This document shows, in pieces, positions 1,304 to 13,224 of a stretch of 30,718 nucleotides of DNA (position 1 is its first letter; each line of letters opens with the position of its first letter). This stretch comes from a virus, in IMG/VR virus record IMGVR_UViG_3300042516_001705, positions 1 to 30,718 of that record. One strand, 5' to 3'. Made by a program: the position numbers and the translations under genes. The notes beneath the pieces were generated by a model. The model saw nothing but the letters and a program-made list of their open reading frames with translations, did not search any database and was not told the DNA's origin.

Positions 1304-1720
1304 TTAGGCCAACAAGAAAGTCTTTAAACCGGGTATTTGAGTTTCGGCTTTATCTAGTTCAGCAGATCCTCTAAATACTGTTCCTCTACTTATTACAGCA
1401 GACTGATATAGAGGATCATTAGTGAAGTTATTATATGTTTGTTCGTCTACTTCTTTTATTGATATAGGGAATACATTTATTTTTTTAAGAAAATAACGTT
1501 TTGGTGCTCCTACCTGTGGTGGGAGTGATGTTGGTGTTGATGGTGCTGGGGTGGCAACTATTTTTGATAATTCTTTTGATTGAATAGTATAAGTTTTTCC
1601 AGTATAATATTTACTATCCAAAACAACACAATAATATCCTTGATAGTATTTGCCTGTACTGTCGATATATTCATTTCCTCGAGTGTATTGATTTTCTAAT
1701 ATTTTATCTGCTGGTATCAT
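1304..1720 (-). CDS. Unrecognised 138-residue protein, end of the baseplate block
   Basis: I do not recognise a family. The start overlaps the stop of the hub-lysozyme gene as TAATG, implying translational coupling and probably a role with the baseplate. The N-terminal half has a Tyr/Gly-rich stretch (residues 12-44, with YYQGYYCVV) that looks like a small beta fold. A Pro/Ser/Thr linker (57-70) follows, then a C-terminal segment (75-138) without obvious motifs. There is no signal peptide or membrane segment. A small baseplate or spike accessory protein is plausible but rests only on position. Confidence 0.7.
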   Translation of the reverse strand: MIPADKILENQYTRGNEYIDSTGKYYQGYYCVVLDSKYYTGKTYTIQSKELSKIVATPAPSTPTSLPPQVGAPKRYFLKKINVFPISIKEVDEQTYNNFTNDPLYQSAVISRGTVFRGSAELDKAETQIPGLKTFLLA

Positions 1721-4700
1721 TAGTTAAATTCTCCGCTTGTTATACGATTTAATAAATCATTTGCATATCCTATTCTTTTACCAGTTTCTGCAGCTGATAA
1801 AACGTCAGCATATGTTGTGTTAGCTCCTTTAGTTATACCGTCATATCTTTCATATAATGCAGCAGCAGTAACAGCTTCTTCTAGGCTGGTAGATGATTTT
1901 AATCTATCACCTGCTAATTTTTCATTACCATTAAATTCACTAATTATAAATTCTAACTGTACATTTAGTGTATCCCACCCCTTTTTAAATTTCTTCAAAC
2001 TTTCAAGTCTAGGACCTAACCACTGAGCAATACCATATGCTCCTCTACTATTTGTTAGTGTTGGATTTAATTGTGATTCTTGTAATAGGCTACCTACAAA
2101 GGCTGCTGTTTGAAAATCAGTATAGCCTTTATTTCTAAAGAATTGAATTGCTATCTTTAAATTTGTTTGATTAAAACCAGCAGTAGATATTGGGGATGTT
2201 GCAGATAGTGATGTTAATAGGTTTAATGGTATTCCTTCTGTTATAAATTTAGACCAAAATCCATCAGTCGCAACAGTAATGTCATCAGATGCAGGGATGA
2301 TAAATGGATATGCATCTATAGTAGTAACCCAATCGTTATTTTCTAGTTTGTGGTTGAATGCTTTAACTAAGAATCCCAATTGTCTACCATTACCCCCAGT
2401 ATTAAAGAATTTATATCCTTTAGGAAGGATTTCTTCATTTATTTTAAATAAATTTCCAATAACAACACCACCAAACCCATCCATATCCATTGTTAAAGTT
2501 ATTGGTATAATGCTTGAGAAGTTGTTTGGGCTTTCTTTTAGTTGGGAGAAGAAACCTAGCATGTCTCTTAAAACATTATTGTAACTTCCTGGGGCATATT
2601 TTAGGTTAGTAGATCTATTTAATATTGTATTAACTACTCTTTGACCCGATAATGCTGATCCTACACTTGTTGTTTGTTGATAATCTACACTGTCTCCTAA
2701 AGAGCTAAAATATTTTTGTAATTGAGAGAAATTAGCAAGCAAAATACCTATGTAGCTATCTTTATCATTATTTTCATCATAAGATGGAGTAACTACTCTT
2801 GGCTTTAATCTGTCAGTAATGTTATTGTTATATGCAGTTAGTGTACTATTTTTGTATCCTAATTGACCTGATGATTGAAATGCTTGAGCACTAATGGCTA
2901 TCATTGCTCCTTGTTCGGGAAATATCTTTGATTCTAATTTATAACTACGAGCTGTTGACTTTAAATTATGTAATTCAATCTGGAATAGGTTAGAGGTTTT
3001 AGCATCAGGTGTAATGTTTAAATCAACAATACGTGCTTTACTGTCTCTACCGTCTATATGAATATCAAAGTCATTTATGTTACCAGTACATTCCTGCATT
3101 GTTTGGCATATAACTTTAAAGAAGTCAAGAATGTTAATTGTATTCTTACCTTGTGGATCTTTAGCTTCAATATTAGAATTAGTAAGTATTGAATGTAGGT
3201 AATCTATATCTAAGTAGAAATTTGATATATGACCTGAGCTATAGTTGCTACTCTTAACAAAGTATTCTTTAAGGCTGCCCAAACCTTTTAAAACTTCTTT
3301 AGCAGTAACTACAGTAGTAGCTGCTACTTGAGATGTTTTTTGGCTTAATATAAAGGTACCCCAAGTACTATTATTATAAGTTAATGGTTGCCAGCCTAAT
3401 TCTTTACTTAAGATGTTTTTAATATTTATATCATCTGGTTTTTGTAATATAAATACAGTTCCATTAGGGGCATTTGGATTTGAAATTTGAGGATTAATTG
3501 TAGTAAATAAATTAGTAAAGTTGTCTTTAGCTACTTTGTTTCCATACTTATTAAGATGTTGGTCTTGAGCATATGCAGTTAATAATTTAAATAATTCACC
3601 AACATCCTTATACCCTAAAAAACTTAAAAAATTTAATCCAAATTGACCAGACTGGGTACTAGAAAATATAACTTCATTTCCTTTAATTTCACCGTCACCA
3701 CTTGTATTGGTTGGGTTTGTTGGATCAAATATACCTAAAACATAATTGTTTGATCCTATATATTTAATGTAGTTAATTGTTTCTTCTCTTGCTTTTTTAA
3801 GGGCATTTTCAAAATCTTGGATTGGGGAATTAGTAGAAGAATTTTTCATGTATTCTTCTATAAAAAATACTAATTCAAAACGACGTTGAGATGTTCTAGG
3901 TAAGAATGTAAATATATCTTTAATTCGTTTAGAGGTAGGTCCTTGAACAGCTGCACTTGGTGCTTGTACACCTTTAGTTTGACCTTCTATCCACACATCA
4001 CCTTTAATTAAACATTTAGTTGGATCTGTTGATATTTGGAGAGGGTGAGCAATACATTTTAAGTCAACGGCTACAGATCCTGGTACTTGGTAATTTCTAT
4101 CATATGTTATTACTTCAATAAGGGTAGAATTACTACCTTTAGCATCTTGATTTTGAGGTAAAACATATGTGTTAACTAAATCACATAAACTTTCTAAAGT
4201 AATATAATAATTAAACTTATCACCCAATGCATTAGGTGGGGGCAAATTATTTGCATCTCTGTTTTTAAAACCCCATTGTTTTCTAAATATATGATATGTT
4301 TTTCCCTTAATAACCATATCAGGATAAGGTCCTGTAAGGGTAGTTGCATCTGGAAATTCTTTATTATTTGCAAGAAGAGATTGTATTTCAAACAATAGTC
4401 CACTTAATATTCCTTTTGAATAATAGTCTTTTACATCATCTGGTTTGGGGGATATTGGCTTTAGTATTGTGGAAGGTGCTAAAGTAGAAGTACATTCTTT
4501 TATTAAACCAAACGATCCAGTACTACCTAAATCAATATTTAATGGAGCGTAGTTTATTTTTAATGACTCTAATACTTCACCTAATGAAATAATGTAAGTT
4601 GTACAATCATATCCTCCATCTGATCTAGCTGACCATTGATAATTTTTAACATATCCTAATATTGCTTCATATTCACCCTTATTGTCTCTACATTTTTGGA

Positions 4701-5271
4701 ATATGTCTTTGTATGCTTGCTGGAAGTCTAAGTTGTTTTTAGATGAATCTAAAATATCATAGTAGCTTGGAATAAATCCATTATAAGACCAACCCCATTC
4801 TAACAATACTGTGTAGCCAGGGCGCATAAATAATAATTCTAAATCTTCTAGTTGTTGAATATCCCAGCATTGGAATGTTACTGTAGCTTCAATTAATGAA
4901 CCATAAGCTGTTTTGCATTCGGCATTCATACCTGTAATACCAGGCATAGGTCTCATACCACGAAGATACGGGTTTCCAGAACTACCATTACTGCTGTATG
5001 CGTTGTTAATAAATGAAGTACCAACACCAGATTTTCTATCAAATACTCCTGTGGCTGAATTTGTTAAAGTACCGCCTTGTAAAACATATTTTTTAGCTAA
5101 AGCACCAGCATCACCATTAACTTCAACACCAGACGTCATTCGTATAAATGCGTTTCTAGTTGATTGATAGGTAACTAATTCTGGGCGACGAGTAGGATTA
5201 GATAATCTATCTTGTCTATTAGATAACGATGATGTAACGAAATCTGGGAATGTTTCTTTGAATATAGACAT
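1720..5271 (-). CDS. Baseplate hub-like protein with C-terminal tail lysozyme domain
   Basis: This 1183-residue protein probably sits at the tip of the tail and cuts peptidoglycan during DNA injection. Residues 1038-1183 match the phage tail lysozyme pattern: an N-terminal helix, FVGSLLQES with candidate catalytic Glu1065, then GIAQW at 1080-1084, followed by a W-x-T-L-x-x-Q-L segment. The first ~1030 residues contain a conserved-looking stretch near 105-165 (GMRPMPGITGMNAE, later LLEWGWS) and a long beta-rich body. I infer a hub or spike role from the fused lysozyme and from the position between the LysM protein and the end of the block. The arrangement recalls T4 gp27 plus gp5, but as a single chain with the lysozyme at the very C-terminus. 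The ATG lies five bases after the LysM gene stop. The lysozyme call is firm; the hub identity is inference. Confidence 0.8.
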   Translation of the reverse strand: MSIFKETFPDFVTSSLSNRQDRLSNPTRRPELVTYQSTRNAFIRMTSGVEVNGDAGALAKKYVLQGGTLTNSATGVFDRKSGVGTSFINNAYSSNGSSGNPYLRGMRPMPGITGMNAECKTAYGSLIEATVTFQCWDIQQLEDLELLFMRPGYTVLLEWGWSYNGFIPSYYDILDSSKNNLDFQQAYKDIFQKCRDNKGEYEAILGYVKNYQWSARSDGGYDCTTYIISLGEVLESLKINYAPLNIDLGSTGSFGLIKECTSTLAPSTILKPISPKPDDVKDYYSKGILSGLLFEIQSLLANNKEFPDATTLTGPYPDMVIKGKTYHIFRKQWGFKNRDANNLPPPNALGDKFNYYITLESLCDLVNTYVLPQNQDAKGSNSTLIEVITYDRNYQVPGSVAVDLKCIAHPLQISTDPTKCLIKGDVWIEGQTKGVQAPSAAVQGPTSKRIKDIFTFLPRTSQRRFELVFFIEEYMKNSSTNSPIQDFENALKKAREETINYIKYIGSNNYVLGIFDPTNPTNTSGDGEIKGNEVIFSSTQSGQFGLNFLSFLGYKDVGELFKLLTAYAQDQHLNKYGNKVAKDNFTNLFTTINPQISNPNAPNGTVFILQKPDDINIKNILSKELGWQPLTYNNSTWGTFILSQKTSQVAATTVVTAKEVLKGLGSLKEYFVKSSNYSSGHISNFYLDIDYLHSILTNSNIEAKDPQGKNTINILDFFKVICQTMQECTGNINDFDIHIDGRDSKARIVDLNITPDAKTSNLFQIELHNLKSTARSYKLESKIFPEQGAMIAISAQAFQSSGQLGYKNSTLTAYNNNITDRLKPRVVTPSYDENNDKDSYIGILLANFSQLQKYFSSLGDSVDYQQTTSVGSALSGQRVVNTILNRSTNLKYAPGSYNNVLRDMLGFFSQLKESPNNFSSIIPITLTMDMDGFGGVVIGNLFKINEEILPKGYKFFNTGGNGRQLGFLVKAFNHKLENNDWVTTIDAYPFIIPASDDITVATDGFWSKFITEGIPLNLLTSLSATSPISTAGFNQTNLKIAIQFFRNKGYTDFQTAAFVGSLLQESQLNPTLTNSRGAYGIAQWLGPRLESLKKFKKGWDTLNVQLEFIISEFNGNEKLAGDRLKSSTSLEEAVTAAALYERYDGITKGANTTYADVLSAAETGKRIGYANDLLNRITSGEFN

Positions 5272-7738: not shown

Positions 7739-9838
7739 TTATGCTGATTGATAAGTAGCTCTTACTATTCCTGTACCTACTGCACGGCCGTCTAAGTTAA
7801 CGCCTATTTTAGTAGATTTAGTTACATCGATTAATGTTGACATTAATTCTTCTAATTTACCATTATTACCACCACCTAAATTTAATTTGCCTTTAGGGAA
7901 TGACATAACATCATCACCTTTAAATAAATTAGTCCCAGCAATTACTGTATCGTTATTATTTAATGCTACTGTACCTGTTGGTGTTGTTAATGTTCGAGCA
8001 CCATAACCAACCATATCATCTGCACTGCTCATTACTCCACTAGCTAATCCAGCAACACCTCCTATTAAGGCACCCATAGGACCTCCTACCGCAAATCCGG
8101 CAGCAGCTCCTAAAACTCCTTTCATTAAGGTATTACCTAGTATTGATTGTATTCCTGATATTAATTTTCCTACTAATCCAACAGCATCTGAAAGTACATC
8201 TAATATAGTTCCTAAAGGTCCTCCTACTAGATTACCAAATAGATCTTTTAATTTTTCAACAGCCGCATTAAACTTATCCTGTGCTGCTAATGCTTCTAAA
8301 CGCTTAGCTGCTTCTTCCCCACCTAATGCTACTATTTCAGAACGAGATTTACCAATGGCTTCTTGTTTTAATAATTGGTCTGATAATTGGTCTGATGATA
8401 ATCCTAAAGATTCTGCTAATGCGTTCTGTTGGATAACATTCATCTTACTAAACTTATTAAAGTTAATATTTTGGTTTGTTAACTCTTTAGCTACAGTAAC
8501 TTGATCACCTTGTAATGCTGCTGCTCTAGCTCTTTCTAAGTTTAATTGTTGTCCTGTCAATAATTCAGCTTTTAACTGACTACCTATTGATGATTCGAAA
8601 TCTAATAATTTACTAGCTTGGTTTTTAGTTTGTTCGAGTGTAGTTCCTAATACTTTAGTTTGAGCTACTGCTTCTGCTATTGCTGCAGGATTACCTTTGA
8701 AGTTTGCTAATAATTGTCCTGATATTTTACCTGATTCTTCTAATATTTCTTTACCATCTAATTGAATGCCGTTTTGAGCACTAATCTTAGATGTAATACC
8801 TGCTATTGTTTGTTCAGTAGATTTTAATGTTCTACCTGTTGCTAAGCTTACTCTAGCTAATCCACCAGCTGCTTCCTCACTTAATCCTATTTTCTTTGTT
8901 AAGTCAACAAACGTTTGATTCATGTCCTGAGAGAACACTTTATTGAATCCTAATTGTTTACCTAACGAAGCGTTTGCTTCTATTAGCTTATCTGTATTAA
9001 TAAAAGCATCACCCGCAGCATTAGCCATTCCTACAAACTCTTCTCTTGTTTGCATCGCCTCACCCTTGGTTTGCATCATGGATTTGGCTAATGCTGTTGT
9101 TTGTTTATCTGCTTTATTTGCTTGTGCAAGAAGGAAAGTTATAACAGTAAGAGGATCAGTGAGTGCTTGTCCTATTCCTTTTGCTAAACCTGAAACTGCT
9201 GTAGTTACAACCTTTAGAGCACCGCCACTTTTAGCAGCATCTCTCATATCTTCCTTCATATCGCTGAAGAAAGTATTATTAATTCCTATTTTTCCTAGAG
9301 CACCAACTATACCATCAATGGCTGCTCCTGTTAAACCTAGTTGTTTTTGTATTTTTTTCTCTTCCTTTAATCTCTCTTTAGCTAATTTGTATAATTCTTC
9401 ACTTTGACTAATAACACTTTCAGCTTCGGCAGCAGTGATTCCTGTAACTTGCTTTTGTAAAAGCATAGTTGATAGCAAGTCTTTTTCTTGCTTAATCTTA
9501 GTGATATTACGCTTAATTTCTTTTTCAGACATGGTTGAATAATCAAGCATGTCATATTTGAATTTAGATGCAACACCCTCTAATGATCTAAAACTACTTA
9601 AAACTCTTTTAGTATTTGCATCTCCTTTAGATAACGACTGAACTGAATCTCTAAGTGATGTAGATAATGTGGTAGCAGCATCCGACATACCATCAAAAAA
9701 AGATTGAGCTGCTGATAGTTGTGTGTTAAGATAATTTTGGTTTCGACCTGCTGTAGCTAACTGAGCTTCTATATCTGCAGTATCTAACTTTATCTGTCTA
9801 TAATATCGGGTAAGTAATTCAACTGTTGCTTGATCCAT
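7739..9838 (-). CDS. Tail tape measure protein
   Basis: A 699-residue protein that fills the tail tube lumen, sets tail length and leaves first during infection. It has long helical, coiled-coil-prone stretches (about 1-180, rich in Lys/Glu/Gln/Ala). A repetitive helical middle follows. A Gly/Ala-rich hydrophobic segment at about 572-605 (GVLGAAAGFAVGGPMGALIG) is typical of membrane-interacting parts of tape measures. Location supports the call: it follows tube and chaperone genes and precedes the baseplate block, and it is the longest gene of the tail tube module. By the rough rule of 0.15 nm per residue it would specify a tail of about 100 nm. It has its own upstream motif directly after a terminator, so it probably starts a transcription unit. 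Confidence 0.85.
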   Translation of the reverse strand: MDQATVELLTRYYRQIKLDTADIEAQLATAGRNQNYLNTQLSAAQSFFDGMSDAATTLSTSLRDSVQSLSKGDANTKRVLSSFRSLEGVASKFKYDMLDYSTMSEKEIKRNITKIKQEKDLLSTMLLQKQVTGITAAEAESVISQSEELYKLAKERLKEEKKIQKQLGLTGAAIDGIVGALGKIGINNTFFSDMKEDMRDAAKSGGALKVVTTAVSGLAKGIGQALTDPLTVITFLLAQANKADKQTTALAKSMMQTKGEAMQTREEFVGMANAAGDAFINTDKLIEANASLGKQLGFNKVFSQDMNQTFVDLTKKIGLSEEAAGGLARVSLATGRTLKSTEQTIAGITSKISAQNGIQLDGKEILEESGKISGQLLANFKGNPAAIAEAVAQTKVLGTTLEQTKNQASKLLDFESSIGSQLKAELLTGQQLNLERARAAALQGDQVTVAKELTNQNINFNKFSKMNVIQQNALAESLGLSSDQLSDQLLKQEAIGKSRSEIVALGGEEAAKRLEALAAQDKFNAAVEKLKDLFGNLVGGPLGTILDVLSDAVGLVGKLISGIQSILGNTLMKGVLGAAAGFAVGGPMGALIGGVAGLASGVMSSADDMVGYGARTLTTPTGTVALNNNDTVIAGTNLFKGDDVMSFPKGKLNLGGGNNGKLEELMSTLIDVTKSTKIGVNLDGRAVGTGIVRATYQSA

Positions 9839-9867: not shown

Positions 9868-9897
9868 AAAAAGCACCTATTTTTTGGTAGGTGCTTT
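9868..9897 (-). terminator. Rho-independent terminator after the chaperone frame
   Basis: On the minus strand a 10-bp stem (AAAGCACCTA pairing with TAGGTGCTTT) closes an 8-base loop and runs into a five-T tract. The hairpin overlaps the stop codon (9877-9879) of the downstream chaperone frame. Confidence 0.75.
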
Positions 9898-10161
9898 AGC
9901 TGTATACGTTGGTTGTTTCGGGGCTATGCCGGGTTTAGCTAGTTCTTTTGATTTATTTTCTAGTGTTTTGTGTGATTTTTCAGCTTCAGCCTTCTTTTCA
10001 TAATGCTCTTTTAATGTTTCAAATGTAAAACGACGAAGCCAAATAGGCATATTATACACTACATCCCATTGATATCCACCCTGTCCATTAAATACAATTT
10101 CATGTATTTGTTTGAATACAGATAATCTATATTCCTGCGTCAGGCCAAAAAAAGTTAGCTT
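9877..10161 (-). CDS. Downstream frame of a frameshifted tail assembly chaperone
   Basis: This frame is open from 10161 (after an in-frame TAG at 10162-10164) to the stop at 9877. Its first ATG is at 10059 (60 codons). The coding sense begins well before that ATG: GLTQEYRLSVFKQIHEIV and then GYQWDVVYNMPIWLRRF. It overlaps the gp26/gp51-like gene by 35 bases, and the overlap holds a run of seven T. A +1 (or -2) slip there would give a fusion of about 330 residues with a charged, Lys/Ala/Pro-rich tail (residues after LKEHYEKK). A two-frame chaperone just before the tape measure is a widespread tail-gene arrangement. The alternatives are an independent 60-codon gene or a homopolymer sequencing error in one longer gene. 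Confidence 0.7.
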   Translation of the reverse strand, partial: KLTFFGLTQEYRLSVFKQIHEIVFNGQGGYQWDVVYNMPIWLRRFTFETLKEHYEKKAEAEKSHKTLENKSKELAKPGIAPKQPTYTAKAPTKK

Positions 10162-10870
10162 CTATTTCGAAGCTCACGCCCTCCCCAACGTAATTTTCAT
10201 CATTTGGAATGAACTTTAAATCAATACCTGGAGATATTTTATTGTAATATTGGCGTAAGGCTCTAGCATCTGGTGCTAATAATGCATTATCAACGAAATC
10301 ACGTATTGTTTTAGTTTCACGATTACCATTAATTGAAGTAATCATATATTTCATACGTGTTGTTAAAGATGGAGATGAATCTGGATTTACTTTTTGTAAG
10401 CCTTTAATTTCTTGATCGATTTTAGTTTCGTCAGCGTGTGTTAATAGTTTAAATGTAACTGTATTACCAGTTTTAGGTAAAGTAAATGAAAAATCATTAG
10501 TACCAGCTTCAAATAAGCTTATATCAATTTTTTTATCTTCTAATTTAGATAAATCGATTGTTTGTTCTTTACTACCATATAATATAGTGTAATCTTTACC
10601 ATATCCTAATGTACGAGCTGCTATCAATATTGCATCTTTATCACATGATAATAAATCATCATAATTGATTGGAGATACAATTAATGATTTTAATAATTTA
10701 TCTAACCAAGTACCATTAACAAGATAATTTCTATTAGTTAAAATATCTTCTTCACGAGCAGTCATGTATTTCATTTCTACTTGACCTGATGATAGTGGTG
10801 ATTCTTTAGGGTATAATAAGCCCTTTGAAGGTAATGAAACTGTTTCAGTTGGAATTTTAAATTCACTCAT
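10127..10870 (-). CDS. T4 gp26/gp51-like baseplate-family protein, probable tail assembly chaperone
   Basis: A 247-residue protein resembling the T4 baseplate hub family that includes gp26 and gp51. Features are an N-terminal LPSKGLLYP (residues 13-21), a charged MTAREEDIL (35-43), the D-x-x-x-I-L-I-A-A-R-T-L-G-Y-G region (79-93) and a terminal FFWP. It lies between the tube and the tape measure, where tail assembly chaperones are normally encoded. Near its 3' end the codons TTT TTT TGG form a seven-T run from which ribosomes could enter the +1 frame and make a longer product. A terminator and a motif copy separate it from the tube gene, so it probably has its own promoter. The family resemblance is fairly clear; the chaperone function is inferred from position and frameshift. 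Confidence 0.75.
   Translation of the reverse strand: MSEFKIPTETVSLPSKGLLYPKESPLSSGQVEMKYMTAREEDILTNRNYLVNGTWLDKLLKSLIVSPINYDDLLSCDKDAILIAARTLGYGKDYTILYGSKEQTIDLSKLEDKKIDISLFEAGTNDFSFTLPKTGNTVTFKLLTHADETKIDQEIKGLQKVNPDSSPSLTTRMKYMITSINGNRETKTIRDFVDNALLAPDARALRQYYNKISPGIDLKFIPNDENYVGEGVSFEIEANFFWPDAGI
10147..10153 (-). other. Seven-T slippery run, candidate frameshift site
   Basis: The coding strand reads AAC TTT TTT TGG in the zero frame. A tRNA-Phe can re-pair one base forward (TTT to TTT), giving GGC next, with TGG as the slow A-site codon. A -2 slip on the same run enters the same frame with one extra Phe. It lies inside the 35-base window where both frames are open. Confidence 0.6.
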
Positions 10871-10904: not shown

Positions 10905-10936
10905 AAAAAAAAAGACGTTTGCCAAAAGCAAACGTC
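10905..10936 (-). terminator. Strong rho-independent terminator after the tail tube gene
   Basis: On the minus strand a perfect 9-bp stem (GACGTTTGC with GCAAACGTC) and a 5-base loop are followed by nine consecutive T. It lies in the 91-base gap downstream of the tube stop. Confidence 0.9.
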
Positions 10937-10961
10937 CTTTGAAAAGAAATATTGTAATTTT

Positions 10962-11447
10962 TTAGAAATTCAATACGCAGTAATCCATAGCGATTGTAAC
11001 TGTTAAGTTAATTGCAGCTTCGCTAGCCCAATCGTATTCACCGAATGTAGCTGTTTTAACGTAAGCACCTTTAACTATCCATTCACCTACTACATCGCCT
11101 ACTGGTCCTAAAATGTCTAAGGTTAAGTCTTTCTTGTAGAAATCAGAATAACCATCACGGCCAGTTACTGATTCGTGTGCCAAACGAGCCCATTCCATTA
11201 CTGATTGAGCACCACTTGGGGTAACAGGATCGTATAATCCTAAAGTCATGTCGTTCCAACGTACTTTACCTTTAACTTTACGGTAAACGTTGATGTGGTC
11301 TAAAATAATTTCACTAGCATCAAATCCAGGAGCTGAAGCACTTTTAATCAAGTACGCTGGAATACCATCGATGTACATGATAAAGCGATTCTGAACTTTA
11401 GGTTCAAATGCTGTGAACATTATTTCATTAGCGTCTAATACAGGCAT
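10962..11447 (-). CDS. Tail tube protein (T4 gp19-like)
   Basis: This is the monomer of the inner tube through which DNA passes. The 161-residue length matches the T4 gp19 family (about 160). The order of elements also fits: an N-terminal loop, RFIMYIDGIPAYLIKSASAPG (around 21-41) as the first beta strand and turn, the ILDHINVYRKVKGKVRWNDM stretch (48-67), VMEWARLAHES helix (83-93), and a C-terminal beta hairpin with FGEYDWASEA and TIAMDYC. The sheath gene lies just upstream, as is usual. High expression is expected: it has its own upstream motif and a strong terminator. Confidence 0.93.
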   Translation of the reverse strand: MPVLDANEIMFTAFEPKVQNRFIMYIDGIPAYLIKSASAPGFDASEIILDHINVYRKVKGKVRWNDMTLGLYDPVTPSGAQSVMEWARLAHESVTGRDGYSDFYKKDLTLDILGPVGDVVGEWIVKGAYVKTATFGEYDWASEAAINLTVTIAMDYCVLNF

Positions 11448-11496: not shown

Positions 11497-13224
11497 TTAT
11501 GCAGGGAATGTAGCGCCAGTTGGTAATATGTTGAAGTTTAATATGATAAACTCAGCAGTCTTAGTTGGTTGGATATAGATCTGACCTACTAATTGGTTTC
11601 TATCAATTACATCAGCTGTGTTGTTTGTTTCATCCATTACAACTTTGTAAGCAAATAAACCTTGTCTTTGTACTACTGATTCCATGTATGGATTAACTTG
11701 AGCTAAGAATCTGTTACGAGTAACGTTTGTATTTTGTTCGAATACTAAGTTATTAGCTACTTGACCAATAAATCCTTTCAATGCAATTAATAAACGACGA
11801 ACGTTTACGCGATCTAAAGCTGTTGCTTTACGTTGTAATGTCTTTTGACCAAATACTACAACACCTTCACCAGGGAATGTAGCTAATGGGTTAACATTTG
11901 CATTATATAAAGTATCGCGATCGTTTTGAGATAATTTTCTTTCAGCTCTTAATACTGATGGAACACCACCACGATTTAAACCTGCTGGAGCGAACCATTC
12001 AGCACCAACTTGGTCGTTGAATGCTAAAACACCACCCATTACTGTTGATGCTGGAGCCCATACAGATTTGCCTAAAGTGCTTGAAAATAATTGAATCCAA
12101 GGCCAATATGTTGCAGCATAGTTGCTTGATTGACCAGCAGCCGCTGTTGTAGCACCTGTTACTGTTGAACCATATGTTGTAGTATCTATTATTGCAATAG
12201 CATCGCCTCTACCTTCGCAAGTAGAAATCATAGATGATGCTGCTACGCCGCTGCCTAAGGTAATACCTGGGGCTAATAATACGTTAAATTGATATTCGTC
12301 TTTATTATTTAATAAAGTGAAAGCAGCTTGATAATCAGCTGGAACAAATCCCTGAATGCTTCCTGTTGTAATTGCTTCATTCATTAATTGAACTGCAGAT
12401 GTTGCAGCTACACCACCAGCAAATGAACCATTGAAAGAACCACTACCTAAAGCAGGTAATGAACCACTATATAAAGTTGCTTTAAATAAACCGTTATTAT
12501 CAATTGAATCAATTTGTGGATTTGGAACAGATGCTACACGAATATATTGAGAAGCATTAGCATAAGAACCAGTTTGATCAATGAATGGAGTACCTGCAGT
12601 ATCTACACGGTAAACTGGTTTAATATCACCGATCACACGAGAGATAAAGTTAGATTGAGCTGGGTCTAATGATAAATTAGGCCATGTTTCAATATAGTTA
12701 GGTTGGTTAGCGTTATCATTACCTTGACGAACTGCTAAACTAAATGTACCACTACCTGTATTTACGTTTGTAACTTCCCAACGAACGTTAGTTGCACTAC
12801 CACTTGCTAAAGCACCACTTACTGCACTAGAAGTATTATTCATTATATCACCCCAAGCTAACGTTTCGATAGTAAATGAACTACCCGTTAAATTGAAAGC
12901 TCCAACAGCAGCACTAGCGTAAGTACTCATACTAGTACTACCACTAGAAATAACTCTAGTTACTAATAATGTTTGACCACCATTTTGGAAGAAATCTTTA
13001 GCGGCTAATGAAGTAAGATATTCGTAGTAGTAACTACCACTTTTAAATGTTTCTCCGAACTTTGACACATACTCAGTGTAAGAAGTAACGTATGTAGGAA
13101 CGAATGGTTGACCTAATACTGTAGGACCAACAATTGCTGTTGAAGTTCCTTGAATACCTCTTTGAACTAATGATTGGTCAGATTCATTTTGGAATACGCC
13201 AGGAGATAAAATTTTTTCTGCCAT
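11497..13224 (-). CDS. Contractile tail sheath protein
   Basis: A 575-residue protein that wraps the tail tube and contracts to drive it through the cell envelope. The N-terminus KILSPGVFQNESDQS (4-18) is the typical sheath start. GTSTAIVGPTVLGQP follows, then a Ser/Gly-rich, probably surface-exposed insertion domain (about 90-290). The conserved C-terminal domain includes a long helix region (RRLLIALKGFIGQVANNLVFE), an N-T-x-V-T-R-N-R-F-L-A segment and the closing strand AEFIILNFNILPTG. Length is slightly below T4 gp18 (659). It starts a unit after a probable terminator and a motif copy, and the tube gene follows. Confidence 0.95.
   Translation of the reverse strand: MAEKILSPGVFQNESDQSLVQRGIQGTSTAIVGPTVLGQPFVPTYVTSYTEYVSKFGETFKSGSYYYEYLTSLAAKDFFQNGGQTLLVTRVISSGSTSMSTYASAAVGAFNLTGSSFTIETLAWGDIMNNTSSAVSGALASGSATNVRWEVTNVNTGSGTFSLAVRQGNDNANQPNYIETWPNLSLDPAQSNFISRVIGDIKPVYRVDTAGTPFIDQTGSYANASQYIRVASVPNPQIDSIDNNGLFKATLYSGSLPALGSGSFNGSFAGGVAATSAVQLMNEAITTGSIQGFVPADYQAAFTLLNNKDEYQFNVLLAPGITLGSGVAASSMISTCEGRGDAIAIIDTTTYGSTVTGATTAAAGQSSNYAATYWPWIQLFSSTLGKSVWAPASTVMGGVLAFNDQVGAEWFAPAGLNRGGVPSVLRAERKLSQNDRDTLYNANVNPLATFPGEGVVVFGQKTLQRKATALDRVNVRRLLIALKGFIGQVANNLVFEQNTNVTRNRFLAQVNPYMESVVQRQGLFAYKVVMDETNNTADVIDRNQLVGQIYIQPTKTAEFIILNFNILPTGATFPA

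Follow-up and report, generated by a model that had tools for sequence, protein, structure and literature searches.

Tail assembly chaperones and their known modes of expression

Tail assembly chaperones (TACs) need to be supplied as an abundant short form and a scarce long form. In phage lambda, the two products, gpG and gpGT, share one start and are encoded between the tube and tape measure genes, the long one acquiring its extension in a shifted frame by a −1 shift at a heptamer. The G-T frameshift has been stated to be conserved “except T4” (PMC5009743). The TACs of T4-like phages were identified by Vladimirov, Gautam & Davidson (Virology 2022, 566:9), as cited in PMC10885494 and PMC12846349. 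According to the PRFect paper (PMC10885494), which refers to that work, some T4-like phages pair a short gene with a long, fused one; for poly-T −1 signals in the TAC genes of T4-like phages, the same work is cited by the Adele paper (PMC12846349). As far as these two citing papers relate it, the two-gene split of T4 and the −1 signals count as known. In cyanophages, gp51 has been described as being about 20% of the T4 length, with the first 200 residues missing (PMC3037559). As for shifts in the opposite direction, a +1 shift in the tail chaperone gene of the archaeal myovirus HSTV-2 has been called very likely, and the release factor 2 genes (prfB) shift at CUU_U or UUU_U, where the P-site tRNA re-pairs one base forward (PMC5009743).

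The locus considered here resembles lambda gpG/gpGT in having two predicted products with one start, an extension in a shifted frame and a position between tube and tape measure, with low shared sequence; it differs in its shift, which would be +1 at UUU-YUU-U rather than −1 at a heptamer, and in its protein, a member of the gp26/gp51 family. It is also similar to T4, where gp26 ends at the Phe-Phe motif, the very place at which the relatives shift frame, and gp51 spans the full length, extension included, although T4 uses two paralogous genes without a frameshift. The cyanophages S-RIM8 and S-PM2 likewise have a chaperone gene (gp26) followed by an out-of-frame extension, there annotated separately as a short “gp51”, but in cyanophages the shift is −1 at T_TTT_TTC (80/80 loci). 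In comparison with prfB, the proposed re-pairing is the same, whereas the A-site codon is UGG, UUC or UAC with no in-frame stop, and no Shine–Dalgarno (SD)-like stimulator is seen. With the T4-like TACs of Vladimirov et al., as the citing papers present them, the locus appears to have in common the chaperone family and the existence of short and long forms, while its long form would arise by +1 rather than by a poly-T −1 signal or a second gene. No description of the +1 clade, which comprises phages of Bacteroidota and related phages, was found in the open-access literature.

Organization of the locus

The window, i.e., the whole analysed stretch of 30,718 nucleotides, carries on its minus strand the genes of the sheath and the tube, a 247-aa open reading frame (ORF) and a 699-aa ORF, in this order. 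The features are as follows:

11497..13224, minus strand: sheath protein (phrog_23, 8e-73; PF04984/PF17482)
10962..11447, minus strand: tail tube protein, the gene before the chaperone (phrog_4542, 9.2e-21; phrog_45)
10910..10940, minus strand: intrinsic-terminator-like hairpin in the tube/chaperone gap, a 14-bp stem followed by a T run
10127..10870, minus strand: putative short tail assembly chaperone (TAC-N, gpG-like) of the T4 gp26/gp51 family, 0-frame, 247 aa
10127..10161, minus strand: overlap of frame 0 and frame +1, 35 nt
10145..10153, minus strand: proposed +1 shift site TTT-TTT-TGG
9877..10146, minus strand: predicted +1-frame extension (C-terminal “T” domain of TAC-NC), 89 aa post-slip, GLTQEYRLSVFKQIHEIVFNGQGGYQWDVVYNMPIWLRRF...
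9868..9896, minus strand: terminator-like hairpin enclosing the +1-frame stop codon, AAGCACCTA-CCAAAAAA-TAGGTGCTT-TTT
7739..9838, minus strand: probable tape measure protein, 699 aa, the gene after the chaperone, assigned in the window by its position

The overlapping frames thus sit between the tube gene and the tape measure gene, the latter recognized by position and by synteny with Flavobacterium phage immuto and Bacillus phage SP-15, both of which have an annotated tape measure in the matching place. The 0-frame gene (10870-10127) ends with GAA GCT AAC TTT TTT TGG CCT GAC GCA GGA ATA TAG, that is, with the C-terminus EANFFWPDAGI*, and its run of seven Ts (10153-10147) is read in frame 0 as TTT TTT TGG. 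The +1 frame opens at 10161 and reaches its stop codon at 9877-9879. Joining the frames at the T run yields a product of 330 aa, in agreement with the roughly 330 residues given in the initial annotation, whose 35-base overlap is likewise exact. As had also been noted there, the first 100 bases of the downstream frame contain no ATG in the window: counted from the slip, codon 29 is the earliest GTG and codon 32, within the conserved NMPIWLR, the earliest ATG.

Proposed mechanism

Taken together, the two frames very probably represent one gene that encodes a two-product tail assembly chaperone (247 and ~330 aa) by means of programmed +1 frameshifting, as judged from comparative sequence analysis. 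Most ribosomes would stop at 10127-10129 to release the 247-aa TAC-N, the equivalent of gpG. A minority would slip +1 on UUU-UUU-UGG, with the peptidyl-tRNA-Phe re-pairing from UUU to UUU one base on, and would then read GGC-CUG-ACG to produce the ~330-aa TAC-NC, the equivalent of gpGT, which would carry an additional helical domain. As in lambda gpG/gpGT, the segment shared by both forms may coat the tape measure protein, and tail-tube subunits may be recruited by the additional domain.

Coding potential of the downstream frame

A scan of IMG/VR provided 80 relatives with 52-96% identity, of which 79 include the whole end of the gene. In each of these 79, the +1 frame continues uninterrupted past the 0-frame stop and the overlap holds the slip site, while the remaining two frames of the stretch are interrupted by stops in all 54 sequences tested. 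At the base composition of the window, an open stretch of 94 codons has a chance of P ~6e-4. Selection on the 28 post-slip codons that precede any start codon in the window is purifying in the +1 frame (dN/dS = 0.21), against 1.27 and 1.48 when the stretch is read in the two remaining frames. Moreover, 29/60 distinct loci have no ATG, GTG or TTG between the point where the +1 frame opens and codon 28, and 43/60 have no ATG there. Since purifying selection precedes any start codon and since start codons are missing in those 29 loci, the comparison indicates that the extension is protein-coding and must be reached from the upstream frame. The programmed frameshift supposed in the initial annotation is thus supported at the sequence level by the 79 open +1 frames, the fixed slip site and the low dN/dS.

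Two explanations had been named at the outset as alternatives. The first is that a sequencing or assembly indel has split a gene that is really single-frame, which is conceivable in general because homopolymers such as the seven-T run are prone to error. The probability of such an artefact is close to nil: the 79 independent contigs share the layout with the cultured phages Flavobacterium immuto, Microcystis Mel-JY01 and Rhodothermus RM378, and the layout is retained in variants with three consecutive Ts and a C inside the run (TTTCTTTGG). In Rhodothermus RM378, identity has fallen to 25%, yet TTT-TTT-TGG is identical.

The second alternative is translational coupling, in which the downstream frame would be a gene of its own, separate from the upstream one and with its own start codon. 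Such an arrangement does exist in the related contigs L188 and L193, in which the T cistron has an ATG of its own just behind or overlapping the stop, and in Cygsa01 and Vibrio 144E46.1, in which the T domain is a separate coupled ORF. For the window, however, this reading is improbable, as the first GTG and ATG (codons 29 and 32) lie behind the most conserved part of the T domain, which is under purifying selection, and as 29/60 distinct loci lack any start codon in that stretch; in addition, L188 and L193 are nested in the +1 clade, have newly gained an N-terminus and show a degraded slip site. The separate downstream gene is therefore a feature of these two contigs, not of the window, and one gene read in two frames is retained for the latter.

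The predicted slip site

In the 79 complete relatives, the overlap site is TTT-TTT-TGG, TTT-CTT-TGG, TTT-TTT-TTC or TTT-CTT-TAC, each followed by CCT; TTT followed by TTT or CTT is found at all 80 sites counted. Among the nonredundant relatives, the first Phe codon is TTT in 42/42, the second codon is TTT in 34 and CTT in 8, and the site is followed by Pro CCT in 42/42 and Asp GAC in 39/42. The slip-site codons are the gene's peak of synonymous conservation (42 nonredundant members). Double coding explains the conservation of CCT-GAC, which specifies Leu-Thr in the shifted frame, but it does not require the T run. Because the overlap is just 23 nt in five distinct loci, the shift would be confined to the region of the T run, and in all relatives the 0-frame stop stays close behind the slip site.

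A canonical −1 signal (X_XXY_YYZ) is inapplicable, since the downstream frame is +1 in 79/79 relatives and −1 is characteristic of the cyanophage-type clade. The initial annotation had proposed a shift of +1 or −2, which enter the same frame; −2 frameshifting has been reported for phage Mu. The seven Ts of the window would permit a −2 shift. At TTT-CTT-TGG, TTT-CTT-TAC and TTC-TTT-TGG, though, the C would leave the P-site tRNA without proper pairing two bases back, while +1 re-pairing works at all C-bearing sites (UUU to UUC, CUU to UUU, UUU to UUU). Hence the +1 part of the proposal stands, the −2 part appears most improbable, and the shift is predicted to be +1. UUU followed by a pyrimidine is reportedly +1-prone in E. 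coli (Schwartz and Curran 1997).

Slippage of RNA polymerase on the T run, creating a mixed mRNA pool, would lead to identical products and is feasible on seven Ts, but some sites that retain the layout have only three or four consecutive Ts, and the −1 clade conserves the ribosomal heptamer T_TTT_TTC. Transcriptional slippage is therefore very unlikely compared with ribosomal +1 frameshifting.

A search for conserved stimulatory RNA structures up- or downstream of the site gave none in the +1 clade (mean z ~0 to −0.4; RNAalifold empty), and no SD-like stimulator is evident near the +1 site, so the efficiency of frameshifting could be low. In the cyanophage clade, the mean z near the site is about −1.3, without a consensus fold. 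In the window, the 6-bp hairpin AGCTTC-GAAATA-GAAGCT (10157-10174, minus strand) directly precedes the T run and is present in the closest relative (L001) as well; it is probably due to chance, as it is unconserved across the clade.

The upstream protein

The 247-aa protein matches phrog_150 “baseplate hub” in a profile search (E=3.4e-8), and the same profile also matches T4 gp26 and gp51. Its similarity to PF12322 T4_baseplate is below the gathering cut-off (E=0.005; 17.0 bits against 24.5). The AlphaFold (AF2) model of the protein has a pLDDT of 91.5, and Foldseek matches this model to the Bacillus SP-15 hub subunit and to T4-like hub assembly proteins. No signal emerged when the window clade was compared directly by hhalign with just T4 gp51/gp26; phrog_150, the fold search and intermediate phages provide the link to T4. 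The earlier assignment to a gp26/gp51-like family is thus upheld by the phrog_150 match and the fold match to T4-like hub assembly proteins.

The N-terminal residues 1-95 align with the solved structures of YqbN (Z 5.8) and the HK97 tail assembly chaperone (Z 4.7) in VIA-align; both values are modest, and common arrangements score in that range too. These two nevertheless rank first and second of 613 re-aligned chains. YqbN is a prophage tail protein. In Foldseek, the N-terminal domain matches solved chaperone structures weakly (E 1.1). Since the top two of the 613 chains are YqbN and a tail chaperone, and given the gene order, the 247-aa protein is likely a tail assembly chaperone, as the model and the sequence suggest; the same top-ranked, weak fold matches and gene order favour the chaperone role proposed initially. 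A G/GT-type frameshift in a T4-type family, which had been put forward there, is likewise supported, although the principle was already known for T4-like phages.

The extension domain

The most conserved part of the T domain, GLT..YR..F.QIHEIVF.G.GGY, lies ahead of the first GTG/ATG of the window. The clade member L018 matches phrog_634 “baseplate hub assembly catalyst” weakly but in register (E=0.033). The T domain of the window clade is weakly similar to that of the cyanophages, which is reached by −1 (hhalign E=0.0086), and the full-length comparison gives E 7e-4; a strong match to the C-terminal gp51-type domain is found for the −1 clades only. In distant family members, too, this C-terminal domain lies behind the same Phe-Phe motif in a shifted frame. 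Modelled apart from the 247-aa part, the T part reached mid-confidence (pLDDT 72), and a fold search with this model returned nothing significant. In present annotations, the extension is overlooked or begun at an internal ATG, e.g., in immuto.

The −1 relatives, gene duplication and T4

In loci of the cyanophage type, the gene ends with nnT TTT TTC nnn STOP in 80/80 (two of the 80 being cut at a contig end or ending early), and the −1 frame carries the domain. Both Phe codons are TTT-TTC, invariant, in 72/72 nonredundant sequences of this type. The heptamer T_TTT_TTC is seen one codon before the stop in L097-L176, S-RIM8 (L092) and S-PM2 (L206). A −1 shift at T_TTT_TTN also fits Pelagibacter HTVC008M, Methylophilales Melnitz-1, S-PM2, Ochrobactrum OC, Astolliot, Aeromonas 65.2, Desulfovibrio SRB7757, Xanthomonas XacN1, Agrobacterium Atu_ph07 and others. 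Besides the −1 fit, translational coupling could operate in YB07, RHph_N34 and Vibrio K575, whose stop is overlapped by an ATG.

The cyanophage −1 extension matches phrog_634 with 2e-30, as do residues 147-246 of T4 gp51 (1e-23). Fused by the −1 shift, the cyanophage G and T parts align with T4 gp51 end to end (E 4e-14), while the alignment of T4 gp26 with the cyanophage product (E 3e-14) stops at the Phe-Phe motif, where gp26 ends. Because gp51 aligns over its whole length and gp26 stops at Phe-Phe, T4 gp26 is predicted to be the counterpart of the short form and gp51 that of the long form, which accounts for the “except T4” statement. By the same token, the annotated short “gp51” of cyanophages appears to be the −1 extension of the chaperone gene, so that its odd size and missing first 200 residues are explained, and the two annotations should be joined.

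The SP-15 group of phages of Gram-positive bacteria (SP-15, GXN1 and LIS04; L085, L087, L089) has NCC-CGA-TTY before the stop and a +1 layout; the slip could occur at NCC_CGA, with the rare CGA codon as a pause, or at an upstream TTT_Y. Scans with the SRB7757, SP-15 and XacN1 proteins gave no new relatives.

Evolution of the shift

In a tree of 70 chaperone sequences, whose long branches make the deep order unsure, one side comprises the −1 phages of the cyanophage/T4 kind, the T4-type duplicates forming one group (98/94). The other side includes three −1 phages (LR756511, XacN1 and Atu_ph07), the SP-15 group (+1) and the window clade (+1). The +1 mode would be used by phages of Bacteroidota and Microcystis and by related phages, as well as by the Bacillus/Listeria/Streptococcus SP-15 group. 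L188 and L193 fall beside immuto; their separate T cistrons occupy L188:1722-2043 and L193:1720-2013, with the new N-terminal pieces MENIDNLLREIQ.. and MNIDRFLQELQ... Given their nested position and degraded slip site, the separate cistron looks like a secondary loss of the frameshift.

The same extension is thus predicted to be reached by four routes: a −1 shift, a +1 shift, a coupled cistron and gene duplication (T4, with 26 as the short and 51 as the long form). On balance, we favour the view that the direction of the shift changed within one orthologous chaperone family, with +1 (UUU-YUU-U) in one well-supported clade and −1 (T_TTT_TTY) in the rest, together with loss to a separate cistron inside the +1 clade and the two-gene split in T4. 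Such a natural series makes it testable whether the ratio of the forms or the mechanism itself is selected.

Other features of the window

The chaperone gene has terminator-like hairpins on both sides, and around half of the relatives have similar ones: 29/57 distinct relatives ahead of the chaperone start and 27/57 at the 3′ side. The pattern scan that found the hairpin in the tube/chaperone gap missed the one at the +1-frame stop. In SP-15, a terminator is annotated downstream of the tube gene.

Elsewhere on the minus strand, positions 1720-5271 encode a 1183-aa baseplate protein with a C-terminal Phage_lysozyme2 domain (PF18013, 4e-21), and adjoining the baseplate genes, at 2-1267, lies a fragment that by eye resembles a family A DNA polymerase.
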